From Halosegnis longus (GTDB lineage: Archaea > Halobacteriota > Halobacteria > Halobacteriales > Haloarculaceae): DNA of 64,000 nt. Shown here piece after piece: positions 8,963 to 51,002 of this stretch (its first letter is position 1; every line of letters starts with the position of its first letter). The stretch is taken from NCBI RefSeq assembly GCF_009663395.1, contig NZ_QKNW01000002.1:1-64000 (forward strand). Reading direction: 5' to 3'. The translations under genes and the position numbers were made by a program. Under the pieces are notes generated by a model, which saw only the letters and a list, made by a program, of their open reading frames with translations, made no database searches and had not been told where the DNA came from.

Positions 8963-8978
8963 TCCGGAAACCCGGAAG
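8963..8978 (+). promoter_or_regulatory. Shared 16-base promoter element, copy 1
   Basis: Reads TCCGGAAACCCGGAAG and ends 43 bases before the ATG of the ImuA-like/PolB2 operon, just upstream of the expected TATA/BRE zone (AACATAC). The same element with one base different (CCCGGAAACCCGGAAG) occurs before the Orc1/Cdc6 gene and the small wHTH gene downstream. The position suits an activator or repressor site. Confidence 0.75.
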
Positions 8979-9021
8979 CGACCCTGCGACCCTCAACATA
9001 CAGCCGCGCGAAGATGTGTGT

Positions 9022-9705
9022 ATGGCACACCACCACGCTCCACGCGGACCAGACCGGAGTGAGGGCCCACAGCTCGAGCCGGGAATCACACTCCTGCATA
9101 CAACGGCCGTGCAGTCGCCTGGTTTTGTCCAGCTTGTCTGCAGCTCGCTTGCAGCCGCTGACGATGCATTGTGGATTGATAGCCGCAACACCGCCAACAC
9201 ATATCGCCTCTACGAGACTGTCAGTGACGAGCGACAGCTTTCCGGGTTACAGATTGCCCGAGCCTTCACCGCCTACCAGCATTTCGAGCTATGTCGGCAG
9301 CTCTGTCGCCGCGTCACGCCGGACACAACGCTCGTCTGCTTGCCAAACATTGTGAGTCTCTATCAGGACGATGACGTCCCGGCGCATGAACGTGAGCAGC
9401 TATTCACGGCCGTCTGTGCCGGGCTGGCTGGGCTCGTGGAGACGTATTCGCTGCGTGTGGTGATCTCCACCCCAGCTGCGAACGAGCTTGTCGACCGGCT
9501 CACAGCGCTTGCTGACCGAGAACTCTCCGTTGAGACCACGCCATTTGGGTGTTATTTCGAGGGCGACGACTACGAGACGACGCTGTATCCGACGCAACAC
9601 GGGTGGCAGACTACCATTCCGTACTGGGTTGAGCTGTTCGGCGTTGTCGACGATACGCAGCTCGTTGAGACGGCCTACAAAACAGAGTTTGCAGGGGTTG
9701 CATAG
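9022..9705 (+). CDS. Degenerate RecA-fold (ImuA/RadA-like) protein
   Basis: About 227 residues with the layout of a RecA/RadA core but no working Walker A. Instead of GxxxxGKT the N-terminus has LEPGITLLHTTAVQSPG. RadA-like landmarks remain: LWIDSRNTANTYRLYE (compare the vIDtE..f..eR strand), GLQIARAFTAYQHF (compare nI.vaRAfn), and LVCLPNIVSLY followed by a long helix and LRVVISTP. An inactivated RecA-like protein beside a B-family polymerase is the arrangement described for the Sulfolobales dpo2 operon and, by analogy, bacterial imuA-imuB-dnaE2 mutagenesis cassettes. The ATG of MAHHHAPRG is preferred; an in-frame GTG lies two codons upstream. The next gene starts directly after its stop codon. 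Confidence 0.7.
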   Translation: MAHHHAPRGPDRSEGPQLEPGITLLHTTAVQSPGFVQLVCSSLAAADDALWIDSRNTANTYRLYETVSDERQLSGLQIARAFTAYQHFELCRQLCRRVTPDTTLVCLPNIVSLYQDDDVPAHEREQLFTAVCAGLAGLVETYSLRVVISTPAANELVDRLTALADRELSVETTPFGCYFEGDDYETTLYPTQHGWQTTIPYWVELFGVVDDTQLVETAYKTEFAGVA

Positions 9706-9987
9706 ATGGGCCGAACAAATCCGACCTATCGCCGGTTTCTCGATGGGCAGCGCGAACAGTGGAGTGGCTACCGCCGAGCCCTCCGCTATGAGGCGAAACA
9801 GGATTTTGATTCGATCTTTGCGTATGCCGAGCGGTATGCCGATGCAGCCGGCTATCTGAATCGGACGGATCCCTCGACCGCGCTGCTTGTCTCGATGCTT
9901 ATCGGTGTAGAAGCCGAACGGCGCCAGCTCGCTGACCGTGTTGCTGCGCTTGAGGCAGCCTGTGATGATGTCACTCCTGACTGTTGA
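9706..9987 (+). CDS. Small helical protein of the PolB2 operon
   Basis: 93 residues, basic at the N-terminus (GRTNPTYRRFLDGQREQW) with a probable coiled coil at the C-terminus (VEAERRQLADRVAALEAA). I do not recognise a characterised family. It sits between the degenerate RecA-fold gene (its ATG follows that stop codon immediately) and the polymerase, whose start overlaps its end by about 22 bases, so translation of all three is probably coupled. The small size and position suggest an adaptor between the RecA-like protein and the polymerase; this is inference from gene order only. Confidence 0.75.
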   Translation: MGRTNPTYRRFLDGQREQWSGYRRALRYEAKQDFDSIFAYAERYADAAGYLNRTDPSTALLVSMLIGVEAERRQLADRVAALEAACDDVTPDC

Positions 9988-12094
9988 ATTTCGAGAGACT
10001 GGCGTCGTGGAGTGGCATACCACCGCGACTGGTGTCCGCACAGTGGCCGCTCCGGAATATACCCCAACGATGTACGTCGGGGGCGACGAAACAGCTCTCA
10101 CAGAGCTGTCGGCCCGCTTGACCGATGATCCCAAAGTCGTCACGCTGGCTGTCGAAGACCACTACACGTCACTTGGGGCCAGTGACCGCGAGGCAGTCTT
10201 GCGGATCGATGCGGCTCGCGAGCGAGATATTCGACAAGTTGCGACTGAGATCCGGCATCACCACGAGCCGACAGCGTTCCAGCCAGCGACGTTTCGGCTC
10301 TACAACGTGGATTTCTCGCCACAGTTTCGCTACTGTCTGGAAACAGCGACTGCACCAGTACCGACACGCGACCTTCGAACCCTGCGACTCGAGCTCTCCG
10401 AGCCGGCGCGGGCAGCCGATCGTGTCGAGGACCTTGCTATCGATGGCGAGCAGGTGGCTGGCGATGCAGCTACAACACTTCGGGTGCTCGACGAGCGGCT
10501 TCGGACGACCGATCCAGATGTGCTATGTTGCTCTACGGCCGCACTTGTCCCCCTCCTCGAGACGGCCGCACACGAGCATGGCCTCGATGACTTTGCACTC
10601 GGGCGCCGAGAGGGCTATGAGCAACTCGCTGGAGCAAGCACCTACGAGAGCTACGGGCAAGTAGGCCACTCGCCCGCTCGCTATGCCGTCCCCGGGCGGG
10701 CGATCATTGATCGGGCAAATAGTTTCATGTTCGACAAGGGCGGGCTCGCCGGCATTCTCGATCTTGTTGAGCGATCATGGAAACCGATTCAGGAGACGGC
10801 ATGGGGCTCAATTGGGACGATCTTGACAGCGATTCAGTTACGCGAAGCAACAAGCCGGGATGTGCTGGCACCGTGGAACAAATGGGAGCCAGAGCGATTC
10901 AAATCAGTCGATCAGTTACACGATGGCGATCGTGGTGGGTTCATTTTCGCGCCCGATGTAGGACTCCATGAGAATGTCACCGAGGTCGATTTTGGCTCGC
11001 TGTATCCGAACATCATGTGCAAGTGGAATATCTCACCGGAGACCATCGACTGTGAGTGCCATGACCGGGCGGGTGTGCCAGGCCTCGAGTATTCACTGTG
11101 TGACAGTCGTGGCTTCATTCCGGACGTCTTGCGCCCACTTATCGATGATCGCGCGGCGTACAAAGAGCGGCTTGCAGAAACGAGCGACCCTGATGAGCGT
11201 GAACACCTCCAGCAACGAGCGGATGCACTCAAATGGATCTTAGTCTCCTGTTTTGGGTATCAGGGATATCGTAATGCGAAGTTTGGCCGCATCGAGTGTC
11301 ATGAGGCGATCAATGCAGTGGCGCGTGAACTCATGCTCAATGCGAAAGCCCGCCTCGAGGAGGGTGGTTGGCGCGTGGTACATGGAATTGTGGACTCGCT
11401 GTGGGTGACACCGAGGGCGCCCGATCCCGAGCCGATTGGAACCCTCTGTAGCGAGATCTCCACAGCGTGTGGAATCCCGCTTGAGCACGAACACGAGTTT
11501 GAGTGGGTTGCCTTCGTTCCAAAGCGTGATTCGGAAGCTGGCGCACTAACGAAATATTTCGGCGCAGTGCGCGATCCAAGCCCCGAAGCTGATGCGTACA
11601 AGATTCGTGGGATCGAAACCCGGCAGCGATCAACGCCGGCGTTCATTGCGACTGTGCAAGAGGAGCTGATTGCTCGCTATGCTGATACGCGCCAGCCGGA
11701 GGCTGTTGTCGCTGCGCTGCAGACGCATCTGGCTGCGTTGCAGACTGGTGACGTTGCACCTAATGAGCTGGTAGAGACTGCACGCACATCACAACCACTC
11801 GAGGCGTACACGCAGGCAACGCTCACGGTCGCAGCGCTGGAGCGTCTGCGCGAGCAGGGACTGTCACGGGCGCCTGGCCAGGATGTCGAGTATATCGTTG
11901 TTGCCGATGATGCAACGGGCGCCGCACGCGTTCGGCTCCCGCACGAGTCCCCCAGTACGTACGATATCGACTACTACAGCCAGTCGCTGATTCGAGCAGG
12001 CGTGAGTGTGTTGGCGCCATTTGGCTACGATGAGCGAATGCTCCGCCAGGCACTGCGTGAGACGACCGACCAGACACTCGCTGCCTATCAGTGA
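9965..12094 (+). CDS. PolB2-type family B DNA polymerase with altered motifs
   Basis: About 709 residues, shorter than replicative PolB. Polymerase motif A is intact (VDFGSLYPNIM, Asp near residue 342). Motif B reads LKWILVSCFGYQG: lysine and Phe-Gly-Tyr are kept, but the usual asparagine is missing. Motif C reads VHGIVDSLWV rather than YGDTDS, so the first Asp is Ile while the second (near residue 477) remains. In the exonuclease half, the ExoI Asp-Ile-Glu and the ExoII/III patterns are not recognisable, although YNVDFSPQFRYCLE and SSIGT-like WGSIGT remain. This combination fits archaeal PolB2, linked in Sulfolobales to error-prone damage tolerance. The ATG is one of two adjacent ones overlapping the previous gene; a weak start 27 bases upstream is less likely. 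Confidence 0.88.
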   Translation: MMSLLTVEFRETGVVEWHTTATGVRTVAAPEYTPTMYVGGDETALTELSARLTDDPKVVTLAVEDHYTSLGASDREAVLRIDAARERDIRQVATEIRHHHEPTAFQPATFRLYNVDFSPQFRYCLETATAPVPTRDLRTLRLELSEPARAADRVEDLAIDGEQVAGDAATTLRVLDERLRTTDPDVLCCSTAALVPLLETAAHEHGLDDFALGRREGYEQLAGASTYESYGQVGHSPARYAVPGRAIIDRANSFMFDKGGLAGILDLVERSWKPIQETAWGSIGTILTAIQLREATSRDVLAPWNKWEPERFKSVDQLHDGDRGGFIFAPDVGLHENVTEVDFGSLYPNIMCKWNISPETIDCECHDRAGVPGLEYSLCDSRGFIPDVLRPLIDDRAAYKERLAETSDPDEREHLQQRADALKWILVSCFGYQGYRNAKFGRIECHEAINAVARELMLNAKARLEEGGWRVVHGIVDSLWVTPRAPDPEPIGTLCSEISTACGIPLEHEHEFEWVAFVPKRDSEAGALTKYFGAVRDPSPEADAYKIRGIETRQRSTPAFIATVQEELIARYADTRQPEAVVAALQTHLAALQTGDVAPNELVETARTSQPLEAYTQATLTVAALERLREQGLSRAPGQDVEYIVVADDATGAARVRLPHESPSTYDIDYYSQSLIRAGVSVLAPFGYDERMLRQALRETTDQTLAAYQ

Positions 12095-12129
12095 ATCCAG
12101 ATTGCCCCGGTGAGAGACGTGATGAGCTA

Positions 12130-12145
12130 CCCGGAAACCCGGAAG
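12130..12145 (+). promoter_or_regulatory. Shared 16-base promoter element, copy 2
   Basis: CCCGGAAACCCGGAAG, an imperfect direct repeat of CCCGGAA. It ends 49 bases before the ATG of the Orc1/Cdc6 gene and is followed by a CTTATGATGG TATA-like stretch about 30 bases before the start. This copy would allow the Orc1/Cdc6 protein, or another regulator, to control its own transcription. Confidence 0.78.
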
Positions 12146-12194
12146 TGACCCCCTTCCGCTTATGATGGCTGGCGCAGGTAGCATGGAGTAGAGC

Positions 12195-13193
12195 ATGTTG
12201 CACAACGCCCGCGTTCTGGACGCTGACTGGGTCCCGAACGACGTGATCCACCGGAACGCGGAGAAGAATCGCCTGCGCAATGCGCTCCAGCCGGTGTTGG
12301 ATGGCGCCCAGCCACAGGATGTGTTGGTTGAGGGGCCATCGGGTGCAGGCAAGACCTGCTTGGCGCGGTATACAACGGCAAAGCTCGAAGAACAAGCCCT
12401 GAACGTGCAAACCCAGTATATCGACTGTTGGAACCACTCCAACCGCTATCGTGTACTGCTCGATCTGCTCGAAGGGATCGGCCCGACGCATGATATTCAC
12501 CGCAATACGCCACAGGACGAGATGCTGAGTCGGCTTGAGCGGATCGATGACCCGTACGTCGTCATTCTCGATGAAGCCGATCAGCTTGCCGACAAAGATC
12601 TGCTCCGGGAGCTATGGTCGATTCCACAGTTGACGGTGATTCTGATTGCTAACCGCGAAGAGGACGTCCTGAATGCACTCGACGAGCGAGTTCGCTCTCG
12701 GTTGCGGAGTGCCATGCGCGTCCGCTTCGATCAGTACCATCATGATGAACTCGTGGCGATTCTGCAGGCGCGCGCTGAGGCAGCCCTCACGCCAGAGGCG
12801 ATCGATGGGCCGCAATTGGATCAGTTAGCCGATGCTGCAGCCGGCAATGCACGGGATGCGATTACATTTCTCCGACAGGCGGCCCAAGAGGCAGAGTGGG
12901 ACGGCCGTGAAACGATCACGAGTGAACATATCCGCACCGCGATTCCGGCAGCACGCGACAATCTGCGTCAGCGCAGTCTCGACAAGCTGAGCGAGGATCA
13001 GCGATTGATCTACGATGTGTTGTTAGAGCATGGGTCACTCATGCCCAAGGAGATTCATGAGCGGTATACCACGCGGGTTGATGATCCAAAGACGAAGCGA
13101 ACAGTACGGAAGTATCTCCGTAAGCTGGAGCACTACAACCTAATCGAGAGCGAGGGCGAAGGGCCCAGTCGTCGCTATACGCCAGCGACGTAA
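12195..13193 (+). CDS. Orc1/Cdc6-family AAA+ ATPase (first copy)
   Basis: 332 residues, shorter than chromosomal archaeal Orc1 proteins (about 400). Walker A is GPSGAGKT at residues 47-54 and Walker B ILDEAD at about 124-129. A sensor-2/lid segment (GNARDAITFLRQAAQEAE) and a C-terminal winged helix (HGSLMPKEIHERYTTR) follow. Family members bind origin recognition boxes and recruit MCM, but some paralogues (Orc1-2 of Sulfolobus) act as transcription factors in the DNA damage response. It lies directly downstream of the PolB2 operon and shares an upstream element with it and with the next gene, which makes a regulatory role worth considering. No long origin-like repeat tract is adjacent. Confidence 0.9.
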   Translation: MLHNARVLDADWVPNDVIHRNAEKNRLRNALQPVLDGAQPQDVLVEGPSGAGKTCLARYTTAKLEEQALNVQTQYIDCWNHSNRYRVLLDLLEGIGPTHDIHRNTPQDEMLSRLERIDDPYVVILDEADQLADKDLLRELWSIPQLTVILIANREEDVLNALDERVRSRLRSAMRVRFDQYHHDELVAILQARAEAALTPEAIDGPQLDQLADAAAGNARDAITFLRQAAQEAEWDGRETITSEHIRTAIPAARDNLRQRSLDKLSEDQRLIYDVLLEHGSLMPKEIHERYTTRVDDPKTKRTVRKYLRKLEHYNLIESEGEGPSRRYTPAT

Positions 13194-13248
13194 ATTACTC
13201 CGAACTCAACCCCCGAGACACTCGCCGTATTCACCTGTAAAATTGGTA

Positions 13249-13264
13249 CCCGGAAACCCGGAAG
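13249..13264 (+). promoter_or_regulatory. Shared 16-base promoter element, copy 3
   Basis: CCCGGAAACCCGGAAG, identical to the copy before the Orc1/Cdc6 gene. It ends 43 bases before the ATG of the small wHTH gene, with a CCTTACGCC/CTATTG TATA-like zone between. The spacing equals that before the ImuA-like gene. Confidence 0.78.
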
Positions 13265-13307
13265 CCGCCACCTTACGCCTATTGACAGACACTGGCTGGG
13301 TAGTAGT

Positions 13308-13604
13308 ATGGCAGCAACCAACAGCGTCGGAGACCACATCCAACGGCTCGCACTGCAGCGGATCCTTGACCACCTGCGCGCGGAGCACGAGCGTGGTCGG
13401 AGCTTCTACACACTCACTGAGATTGCCGAAGCGACTGGGCTTGATCCCACGACTGCCGCACAGGCGATGGAAGAACTGGAGGACGGTGGCCCATACACCG
13501 TCGAGGCAGTGGACGCAGAGTACAGCGAGATTCAGTGGCACGTATGGGGGTCTCCCTACGAGCTTGATGGCTGGGACTCTGACGTGTGGAATATTGAGGA
13601 GTGA
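13308..13604 (+). CDS. Small winged-helix protein of the first Orc module
   Basis: 98 residues with a helix-turn-helix-like segment (YTLTEIAEATGLDPTTAAQAMEEL) followed by a wing-like strand and an acidic, Trp-rich tail (GWDSDVWNIEE). No named family is evident. It follows the Orc1/Cdc6 gene by about 115 bases but has its own copy of the shared promoter element, so it is probably transcribed separately under the same control. A second gene of the same length, also wHTH-like and also sharing a private element with an Orc1/Cdc6 gene, occurs at 50.7 kb. The role could be corepressor, DNA-binding partner or replication-copy control; this is inference. Confidence 0.75.
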   Translation: MAATNSVGDHIQRLALQRILDHLRAEHERGRSFYTLTEIAEATGLDPTTAAQAMEELEDGGPYTVEAVDAEYSEIQWHVWGSPYELDGWDSDVWNIEE

Positions 13605-49520: not shown

Positions 49521-49548
49521 AAATGAAGTAAATGAAGCAAATGAAACG
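49521..49548 (+). promoter_or_regulatory. Triple 9-base repeat before second orc gene
   Basis: Three units at exact 9-base steps (49521, 49530, 49539): AAATGAAGT, AAATGAAGC, AAATGAAACG. They end 41 bases before the ATG of the Orc1/Cdc6 gene. An almost identical array precedes the small wHTH gene that follows, at the same distance. Confidence 0.75.
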
Positions 49549-49589
49549 ACCCGTTGCATTTGATAACCCCATGAGTTGTAATCGCACAT

Positions 49590-50624
49590 ATGCTGCAGAA
49601 CGTCAACGCGTTCCGCCTCGACGAGCCGCCGCGCTCAGTCGTCGGGCGGAACCCTGAACAACAGGCGCTATCGCGCTGTCTCAAGCCGATTGCCGATGGT
49701 GACCCCGGACAGTCAGCGGTGCTTGAGGGGCCAGCGGGCGCGGGGAAGACGACGGTCGCGCACTCCACGCTCACGCGCCTGCGCGAACAGTCGATTGCGG
49801 CCAACACCGCCCACGTCCACTGCTCGGGCATGTCGCGGTACACGCTGCTTGAGACGCTCGGCCGGGAGACAGGCGTCGGGCCAAGTGGCCACGCACGGTC
49901 GGCCGCCGACATGCTCGACCGCCTGCGTGAGTTGACCGAGCCGTGGGTCATCGTGCTCGATGAGGTCGACGGTCTCAAAGACCGCAGTGCGATTACCGAT
50001 ATCTGGTCACTGCGTGAGGTGACGTTGGTCGCGATTACGAACAACGAACCGCGACTGCAGGCGGCGCTCGACGAGCACGGCAAATCGCGAATTCGTGCCA
50101 TGACGACCATCAGCTTCGATAGCTATTCCGACGCCGAACTCATCGATATCATGCGGGAGCGCATTGAGTGGGGCCTGTCGACCGCCGGCACGGTGCCCGA
50201 CGACCAGCTCGAACTGATTGCGCGTGCCGCCGATGGCGATGCCCGCAACGCGATTTCGATTCTCTCCCAGTCAATTCGCGCGGCCGAAGAAGATGGCCGG
50301 ACGACTGTGACGCGCGCCGACGTGGTGGAAGACGGTATCGACCGAGCAGCCGAAGAAATCCGGGACAAGCAACTCAGCAAGCATTCGCACCACCACCGCG
50401 CGGTCTTCGACGCGCTGGACGATGGCGGCGAGTGTGGGCTTGAGACGCTCTACGAGCGGTACACGCAGGCCGTGTCGGACCCGCGCAGCCAACGGCAGAT
50501 GTCGAACTATATCTCAGACCTCGTCGAGTACGACCTTATCGAGCGCCGGGGGCCGCGACAGGACCGGACGTTCGTCACGCGACCGCCAATTACGATTTCA
50601 TTAGAAAACCACCAGACACCGTAG
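49590..50624 (+). CDS. Orc1/Cdc6-family AAA+ ATPase (second copy)
   Basis: 344 residues. Walker A GPAGAGKT at residues 47-54, Walker B IVLDEVDG at about 121-128, sensor region TLVAITNNEPRL, lid GDARNAISILSQSIRAAEED, and C-terminal winged helix (CGLETLYERYTQAV). Size and layout match the first copy at 12.2 kb, but the sequences have diverged. It may be an initiator for this element or a regulator. The upstream 210 bases contain the triple 9-base repeat and no other gene. Confidence 0.9.
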   Translation: MLQNVNAFRLDEPPRSVVGRNPEQQALSRCLKPIADGDPGQSAVLEGPAGAGKTTVAHSTLTRLREQSIAANTAHVHCSGMSRYTLLETLGRETGVGPSGHARSAADMLDRLRELTEPWVIVLDEVDGLKDRSAITDIWSLREVTLVAITNNEPRLQAALDEHGKSRIRAMTTISFDSYSDAELIDIMRERIEWGLSTAGTVPDDQLELIARAADGDARNAISILSQSIRAAEEDGRTTVTRADVVEDGIDRAAEEIRDKQLSKHSHHHRAVFDALDDGGECGLETLYERYTQAVSDPRSQRQMSNYISDLVEYDLIERRGPRQDRTFVTRPPITISLENHQTP

Positions 50625-50636
50625 CGACTCGCCAGC

Positions 50637-50664
50637 AAATGAAGCTCATGAAGCAAATGAAACG
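50637..50664 (+). promoter_or_regulatory. Triple 9-base repeat before small wHTH gene
   Basis: CAAATGAAG, CTCATGAAG, CAAATGAAACG, again at 9-base steps, ending 41 bases before the ATG. The middle unit carries two changes compared with the copy before the Orc1/Cdc6 gene. The equal distance to both starts implies the same regulator. Confidence 0.75.
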
Positions 50665-50705
50665 CCCCGTCTGTACTGATACGTGGCAGGCTGGTAGGCC
50701 GACGT

Positions 50706-51002
50706 ATGAGTGCCGATGCTGCTGGCGACCCGGATTACGACCTGATTGCTGAGGAGCTCGGGCTGAACAGTGATAGCGGACCGGAGACCCATCTGCGGAA
50801 GTGCGTGACTGAACTCCGCGAGGCGCTGGCGCGAGCGGCTGGACGTGGTGAGTACGAGCACACAACGGCGTCCGCCTCGCGACTCGTCGGCTACCCCGCA
50901 CCGGTCGTCGGTGAAGCACTCCGGGCGATGGCTGCCGACGCGCCCGATCTACTCGAACACACAGACGACGGGTGGCGGTTCATGCCGCCGGAGGAAGAGT
51001 GA
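50706..51002 (+). CDS. Small winged-helix protein of the second Orc module
   Basis: 98 residues: a helical N-terminus (DLIAEELGLNSDSGPETHLR), an HTH-like region (EHTTASASRLVGYPAPVVGE and ALRAMAADAPDLL) and a short beta tail (HTDDGWRFMPPEEE). No named family. Its length, acidic C-terminus and location after an Orc1/Cdc6 gene, with a shared private promoter element, parallel the gene at 13308-13604, although the sequences are hardly alike. A palindrome lies eight bases after the stop. Confidence 0.72.
   Translation: MSADAAGDPDYDLIAEELGLNSDSGPETHLRKCVTELREALARAAGRGEYEHTTASASRLVGYPAPVVGEALRAMAADAPDLLEHTDDGWRFMPPEEE

Follow-up and report, generated by a model that had tools for sequence, protein, structure and literature searches.

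Genes and promoter elements at the locus

The window analysed here is a stretch of 64,000 nucleotides from Halosegnis longus, namely the initial 64 kb of contig NZ_QKNW01000002.1, whose total length is 181.5 kb. Three transcription units that lie close together on the forward strand are each preceded by a copy of one tandem element:

8963-8978, + strand: tandem element copy 1, TCCGGAAACCCGGAAG, 5' of the iRadA-PPB2-PolB2 operon
9022-9705, + strand: iRadA, degenerate RadA-fold protein without Walker A; ORF open from GTG 9016
9706-9987, + strand: PPB2 (arCOG07300-like), 93 aa, phrog_30126 with E 1e-18; starts MGRTNPTYRRFL
9968-12094, + strand: PolB2-type DNA polymerase, NF004418 over the full length with E 4e-276
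12130-12145, + strand: tandem element copy 2, CCCGGAAACCCGGAAG, in the orc promoter
12154-12158, + strand: TTCCG, a third half-site in inverted orientation that directly adjoins the orc TATA box, CTTAT (12159-12163)
12195-13193, + strand: Orc-A, regulator-type Orc1/Cdc6, 332 aa, TIGR02928 with 187 bits, Cdc6_lid; AAA+ and C-terminal winged helix
13249-13264, + strand: tandem element copy 3, CCCGGAAACCCGGAAG, 5' of wHTH-A
13308-13604, + strand: wHTH-A, winged-helix protein of 98 aa, HTH_IclR with 23 bits

The genes of the first unit, iRadA, PPB2 and PolB2, are adjacent, in that order, on one strand. The initial annotation had described a PolB2/ImuA-like cassette whose first gene encodes a degenerate RecA-fold protein. 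Sequence searches with this protein (229 aa) gave no match, but its AlphaFold (AF2) model (pLDDT 77, pTM 0.74) matched DMC1/RadA/Rad51 in Foldseek with E about 1e-10 and prob 1.0. An hhalign comparison with haloarchaeal RadA used a near-identical RadA set, and the identity was settled by the fold search. A Walker A motif (GxxxxGK[ST]) was not visible in an alignment of nine homologues, and the homologues are 38-60% identical. The assignment as degenerate RecA-fold protein plus PolB2 thus stands, but since the predicted fold is that of RadA/Rad51, "ImuA-like" is better replaced by iRadA. PPB2 opens with MGRT, a hallmark of this family, and motif C of PolB2 reads HGIVDS, the first Asp of DxD being lost as in most PolB2 proteins (PMC11791011). 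The operon of unit 1, iRadA-PPB2-PolB2, is already known from the literature as a translesion "mutasome", and its enrichment for orc1/cdc6 genes as frequent neighbours was also noted earlier (PMC4104785, PMC11791011). The cassette had been presumed to be new in the initial annotation, which does not hold for the operon and its orc neighbours; no description of the element was found in the literature searched, and the cis-element, the membership of wHTH and the wiring in two classes (see below) appear to be undescribed. The Orc/Cdc6 and small winged-helix assignments of the second and third unit were borne out by the profile matches.

The surroundings of such cassettes differ in other haloarchaea. 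On pNRC200 of Halobacterium NRC-1, PolB2 adjoins orc4 and an IS200/IS605-family transposase gene lies just upstream; this cassette looks truncated, with the transposase gene where Halobacterium GN101 has iRadA and PPB2. On Haloarcula marismortui pNG600, on Natrinema J7-2 pJ7-1 and in Halobacterium GN101, the Orc gene comes directly 3' of a defence island, either BREX-5 or one with DUF499/DUF1156/helicase genes, and also adjoins a gene for an SOS response-associated peptidase (SRAP), ahead of iRadA-PPB2-PolB2. On pNG600, orc spans 143442-144470 and iRadA-PPB2-PolB2 spans 135471-139584.

The 3' ends of the three element copies are 43, 49 and 43 bases away from the ATGs at 9022, 12195 and 13308, and copy 1 differs in one base from the other two. 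Copies, deviation and spacing had been reported in the initial annotation and were confirmed when the positions were recounted. With up to three mismatches allowed, the window contained these three copies and no others (shuffle mean 0.61; at least three in 4/100 shuffles), and the core CGGAANNNCGGAA (CGGAA-N3-CGGAA) matched 3 times compared to 0.22 expected, with no shuffle giving three. In the whole genome (2.77 Mb) only the three copies were found at up to one mismatch, and the reversed control gave 0. The crenarchaeal ANTTTC box was not seen at the window promoters, which have tandem CGGAA; an ACTTTC-type tandem was seen in other loci only. The Halobacterium UV motif, TTTCACTTTCA, is absent from the window cassette, and one copy lies elsewhere in the same genome.

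The element belongs to a family found across Halobacteriales

A tandem repeat immediately 5' of the TATA box was found in the iRadA promoters of about 60 further cassettes. Two classes were defined by fixed patterns, class 1 being CGGAA-N3/4-CGGAA with variants such as TGGAA, and class 2 being TTTCACTTTCA. Among 63 iRadA promoters, 38 were of class 1, 11 of class 2 and 14 of neither, several of the latter being visibly degenerate versions. Among 428 promoters of the remaining genes of these loci, 6 had class 1 and 1 had class 2. In a second set of loci from named organisms, which overlaps the first in part (e.g. Halorarius litoreus BND22 is in both), 35 of 40 iRadA promoters carried class 1, and the 79 orc promoters comprised 32 with the tandem, 33 with a palindromic TTTCCGGAAA variant and 1 with class 2, at a background of 5/474 and 9/474. 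Such repeats are therefore found at 1-2% of control promoters (6/428, 5/474) and are not widespread at unrelated genes. Judged by half-sites and spacing, the element is a member of a haloarchaeal family in which CGGAA half-sites are repeated in tandem at a distance of 8 or 9 bases.

A strict search with the 16-mer returned mostly close relatives and some chance matches inside genes, and therefore half-sites and TATA box were combined in one pattern (CGGAA-N3/4-CGGAA-N11-19-YTTAT), which was run against 295 Halobacteriales genomes. About 121 matches were obtained, compared to 10 for the reversed pattern. The sequence was read for 91 matches, and 47 of these precede a gene of the Orc clade or a PolB2 cassette; for 46 of these, the second half-site is exactly 14 bases away from the TATA box. 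Roughly 40 of the 91 are located elsewhere and their spacing to TATA is mostly irregular. The 14-base gap recurred in 11 remaining matches, of which 3 front orc remnants, 4 a small conserved ORF and 1 a broken TFB gene. Judging from where the matches with fixed spacing fall, the regulon has few members, and orc and the mutasome are at its core. The scan, together with the promoter sets, confirms that the element accompanies orc/polB2 cassettes across Halobacteriales, so that the idea of one regulon survives the check by genome scan which the initial annotation had itself set for it. In these promoter comparisons, a non-initiator Orc, the mutasome and, in some Haloarculaceae, the wHTH gene are set apart by promoters in which a tandem element keeps a constant distance to the TATA box.

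Some single loci deserve mention. In three of them (L118 6700-6960 in G265, L150 in G051 and L214 in G196), polB2 lies directly behind a class 1 element. Four loci from Natrialbaceae (family f7; L247 500-1200, L249, L250 and L256) have class 1 with the 14-base gap 5' of the small conserved ORF, and a tyrosine integrase follows this ORF in three of the four (L249, L250, L256). These integrase neighbours hint at a damage-coupled mobilisation of integrative elements. A class 1 element fronts the frameshifted gene for TFB (general transcription factor B) in L157 (1500-2000; G103). A PadR-like winged-helix gene on the Halosegnis marinus plasmid NZ_CP119803.1 (L059, 6557-6968) has the 16-base element in exact form in front of it, and its product showed no relation to wHTH-A by blastp.

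The small wHTH gene was followed by protein similarity alone in 148 genomes of the family. Four homologues were obtained (57, 43, 46 and 30% identical), and all 4 have a class 1 element upstream: CCCGGAAACCCGGAAG, CGGAACCTCCGGAA, CGGAAGTTCCGGAA and CGGAATTATCGGAA. The most distant homologue has an in-frame stop, and only weak matches were seen in the rest of the order. By its promoters, wHTH is a genuine member of the putative regulon with a narrow distribution (some Haloarculaceae).

Regulator-type Orc proteins and co-variation with the element

In a phylogenetic tree, Orc-A fell into a clade of 39 rows (support 100/99), apart from the initiator-like Orcs of its own genome. The replicon carries another full-length Orc (C2:79907). 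By this tree, regulator-type Orcs are separate from initiator-type Orcs with strong support, some branches being long. A local Orc of this clade was present in 28 of 38 class 1 cassettes versus 0 of 11 class 2 cassettes. Three of the class 1 cassettes are in genomes in which no Orc of the clade was detected (G042, G093 and G155), at least G042 being incomplete. Across genomes, PolB2 and the Orc clade occurred together in 140, only one of them in 43 and 29, and neither in 83; the co-occurrence has a p of 9e-18 in a statistic that ignores ancestry.

At 30 loci with both orc and iRadA, the variable positions of the two elements agreed at 4.70 of 8 positions versus 2.97 with shuffled partners, and none of 5000 shuffles reached this value. 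The flanks of the same elements agreed at 5.23 versus 4.66 and at 4.37 versus 3.97 by chance (both about p 0.05). Since relatedness should raise the agreement of the flanks as well, the co-variation is unlikely to come from relatedness alone. It probably reflects a single factor that reads both promoters at a given locus, and does not by itself single out Orc. Nevertheless, because of its presence in most class 1 loci, its absence from the class 2 loci and its co-occurrence with PolB2, Orc is the natural candidate for the shared factor. The conserved, co-varying element common to orc and iRadA promoters is thus the basis for a candidate autoregulation and a candidate control of PolB2.

The inverted half-site that abuts the TATA box of orc in the window was found in other orc promoters as well: TTCCR in this position was present in 24/35 orc promoters versus 0/12 cassette promoters, and in another sample in 12/30 orc versus 0/50 cassette promoters. 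Its occurrence in many orc promoters and in none of the sampled cassette promoters suggests an autoregulation of orc which is distinct from the regulation of the targets. The orc promoters of viral Orc relatives (LSV-48N and SNJ2; 38-39% identical) do not have a tandem element of this kind.

A second module in the window

A parallel module with a different tandem element is located at 49521-51002 and had been missed by the initial annotation:

49521-49547, + strand: module B array 1, three ATGAA half-sites with a period of 9, 44 bases before orc-B
49590-50624, + strand: Orc-B, second regulator-type Orc (Orc-A clade HMM 298 bits, tree, Pfam Cdc6_lid)
50637-50663, + strand: module B array 2, ATGAA, 44 bases before the 98-codon ORF
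50706-51002, + strand: 98-codon ORF behind array 2, encoding a small protein, possibly a wHTH

The distance of 44 bases to the ATG was counted from the last half-site, and the genome holds no ATGAA arrays besides these two. The 98-codon ORF had no Pfam match, no homologue in 146 genomes and no detectable homology to wHTH-A, and close relatives of Orc-B were not found in the genome contigs searched. In module B the design appears to recur in the same geometry, with a different half-site and a different Orc; we regard this as suggestive only, since the module has no relatives in the collections searched.

Class 2 promoters and the UV motif

TTTCACTTTCA was described as a motif 5' of the UV-B-induced genes radA1, top6B, vng17 and vng280 in Halobacterium NRC-1, where its regulator was left unassigned (PMC2556686). 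In many genomes we found class 2 ahead of radA1 and of the genes for topoisomerase VI-B and RPA, and in other haloarchaea ahead of iRadA-PPB2-PolB2 (the 11 of 63 iRadA promoters given above). The reversed pattern is not a valid control for TTTCACTTTCA, because the motif is nearly identical when read backwards. From these two findings, the same mutasome is, as far as promoter motifs tell, wired in two ways, through the general UV motif or through a private element beside its own Orc. Among 20 non-haloarchaeal loci, TTTCACTTTCA or a stretch matching it over 10 bases was present at two, and the class 1 element was absent from the methanogen PolB2 loci. At three loci (L069 4250-4390, L070 11350-11500 and L132 3850-3935) a regulator-type orc gene is itself fronted by TTTCACTTTCA or a close variant, and in L069 and L070 this orc is ahead of the mutasome genes on the same strand. 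Given the position of class 2 before these genes, an Orc is a candidate for the factor that reads class 2 and, by extension, the Halobacterium UV motif.

Which factor reads the element?

We consider it likely that the element is the operator of a cassette-borne regulon, in which the cassette-encoded, Orc1-2-like Orc controls itself, the mutasome and wHTH. The element looks like a portable switch of a damage-response mutagenesis system.

An unlinked chromosomal factor that reads the element, with Orc as just another target, is an unlikely but serious alternative. As targets, the promoters of orc, iRadA and wHTH resemble one another, 10 of the 38 element-bearing cassettes are without a local Orc, and the related TTTCACTTTCA motif is likewise without an assigned regulator (PMC2556686). 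Against this, the variants of the half-sites follow the locus they are in, a different element belongs to Orc-B within one and the same genome, and cassettes without a local Orc tend toward TTTCACTTTCA, as seen from the lack of local Orcs in class 2.

That the small wHTH protein and not Orc is the regulator which binds the element is quite improbable. It is a protein of DNA-binding type whose own gene always carries the element, and in module B the 98-codon ORF likewise follows its element; yet homologues were found in only 5 of 148 genomes of the family, while both the Orc clade and the element family occur throughout Halobacteriales, and it is on this narrow distribution that the idea fails. 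Haloarcula marismortui is one of the species that lack wHTH.

The elements might also be origin recognition boxes (ORBs) of an origin beside orc, their placement before genes being a by-product. The initial annotation had pointed to GGAAAC as the core of such boxes. The resemblance is real, haloarchaeal Orc families have family-specific ORBs, and many orc promoters contain the palindromic variant. However, an ORB origin is defined by several inverted ORBs with a G-string which flank an AT-rich region (PMC3528665), and neither a G-string nor an AT-rich stretch nor an inverted pair of elements was found at the window elements (A+T 35-41% around 12000-12340). Further, each promoter has a single element, which always points in the direction of transcription and lies 14 bases from TATA, elements also occur at promoters of iRadA and wHTH that are remote from orc, and the replicon has the other full-length Orc mentioned above. 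Because of this geometry and the missing G-string and AT-rich DNA, we regard the origin reading as very improbable.

A variant of the core promoter (BRE/upstream), shared by chance or recent duplication and served by no specific regulator, would explain why the element adjoins the TATA region and is similar in the three units, but is hardly credible given its rarity at control promoters, its conservation between genera while the flanks diverge, and its three copies only in the genome.

In the cassette-borne regulon favoured here, Orc would bind the half-sites via its winged helix just 5' of BRE/TATA. The ATP state, damage or replication stress may then switch Orc so that the mutasome and orc are induced; damage or replication stress is a probable trigger by analogy with Orc1-2 (PMC9738581). 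The inverted half-site next to the TATA box of many orc promoters would allow autoregulation to differ from target regulation, and the wHTH protein could act as co-regulator or feedback modulator. The assignment to damage control is probably right, but is borrowed from Sulfolobus and the Halobacterium UV motif.

A broader proposal, which we put forward tentatively, is that haloarchaeal Orc/Cdc6 paralogues radiated into self-linked regulators with private tandem operators (CGGAA, TGGAA, ATGAA, palindromic). These could be interchangeable modules for mutagenesis cassettes, perhaps also for the integrases of mobile elements, and would be an Orc-based counterpart of the diversified LexA/SOS boxes. 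The older wiring of the mutasome would be TTTCACTTTCA, whose occurrence also before some Orc genes suggests an Orc as regulator of the UV motif.

Comparison with known systems

To our knowledge, crenarchaeal Orc1-2 is the only archaeal damage regulator that has been worked out. The finding supplies a defined putative operator and a candidate regulator, encoded beside its targets, for the control of inducible mutagenesis in euryarchaea, and it suggests that relatives of replication initiators have repeatedly been turned into transcription switches whose specificities diverged. In Saccharolobus islandicus, Orc1-2 binds ANTTTC (DDRE) at its own promoter and at damage-response promoters (PMC9738581), and the damage regulon includes dpo2 (PolB2) (PMC9738581, PMC11791011). 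As in that system, the gene of a non-initiator Orc and PolB2 share short promoter boxes, which is here read from sequence alone. Unlike in that system, the half-sites are of the tandem CGGAA type, 8 or 9 bases apart, and not ANTTTC, the putative regulon is nearly confined to the cassette and includes a small wHTH gene, and the element is cassette-borne with half-sites that vary between loci. By its sites, the window system is not part of an ANTTTC regulon; by analogy of design, it is Orc1-2-like.

The Halobacterium UV motif is similar in being a tandem repeat 5' of TATA, about 50 bases before the start, and in fronting the mutasome elsewhere, but its sequence is different and it controls radA1, topoVI-B and RPA. 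The published iRadA-PPB2-PolB2 mutasome (PMC11791011, PMC4104785) has the same genes, gene order, sequence hallmarks and orc1/cdc6 neighbours, but a cis-element or a regulon is not described there. Like the haloarchaeal Orc families, each of which goes with its own DNA boxes (PMC3528665), the Orcs described here go with boxes of their own, but these would be promoter operators, without a G-string or an AT-rich unwinding region. With the bacterial LexA/SOS system (imuA-imuB-dnaE2 and PolB2 operons) the cassette has in common, as an analogy only, that regulator, mutasome and shared operator form a portable unit; the regulator proposed here would be an AAA+ Orc, presumably an ATP-switched DNA binder, and not a self-cleaving repressor.
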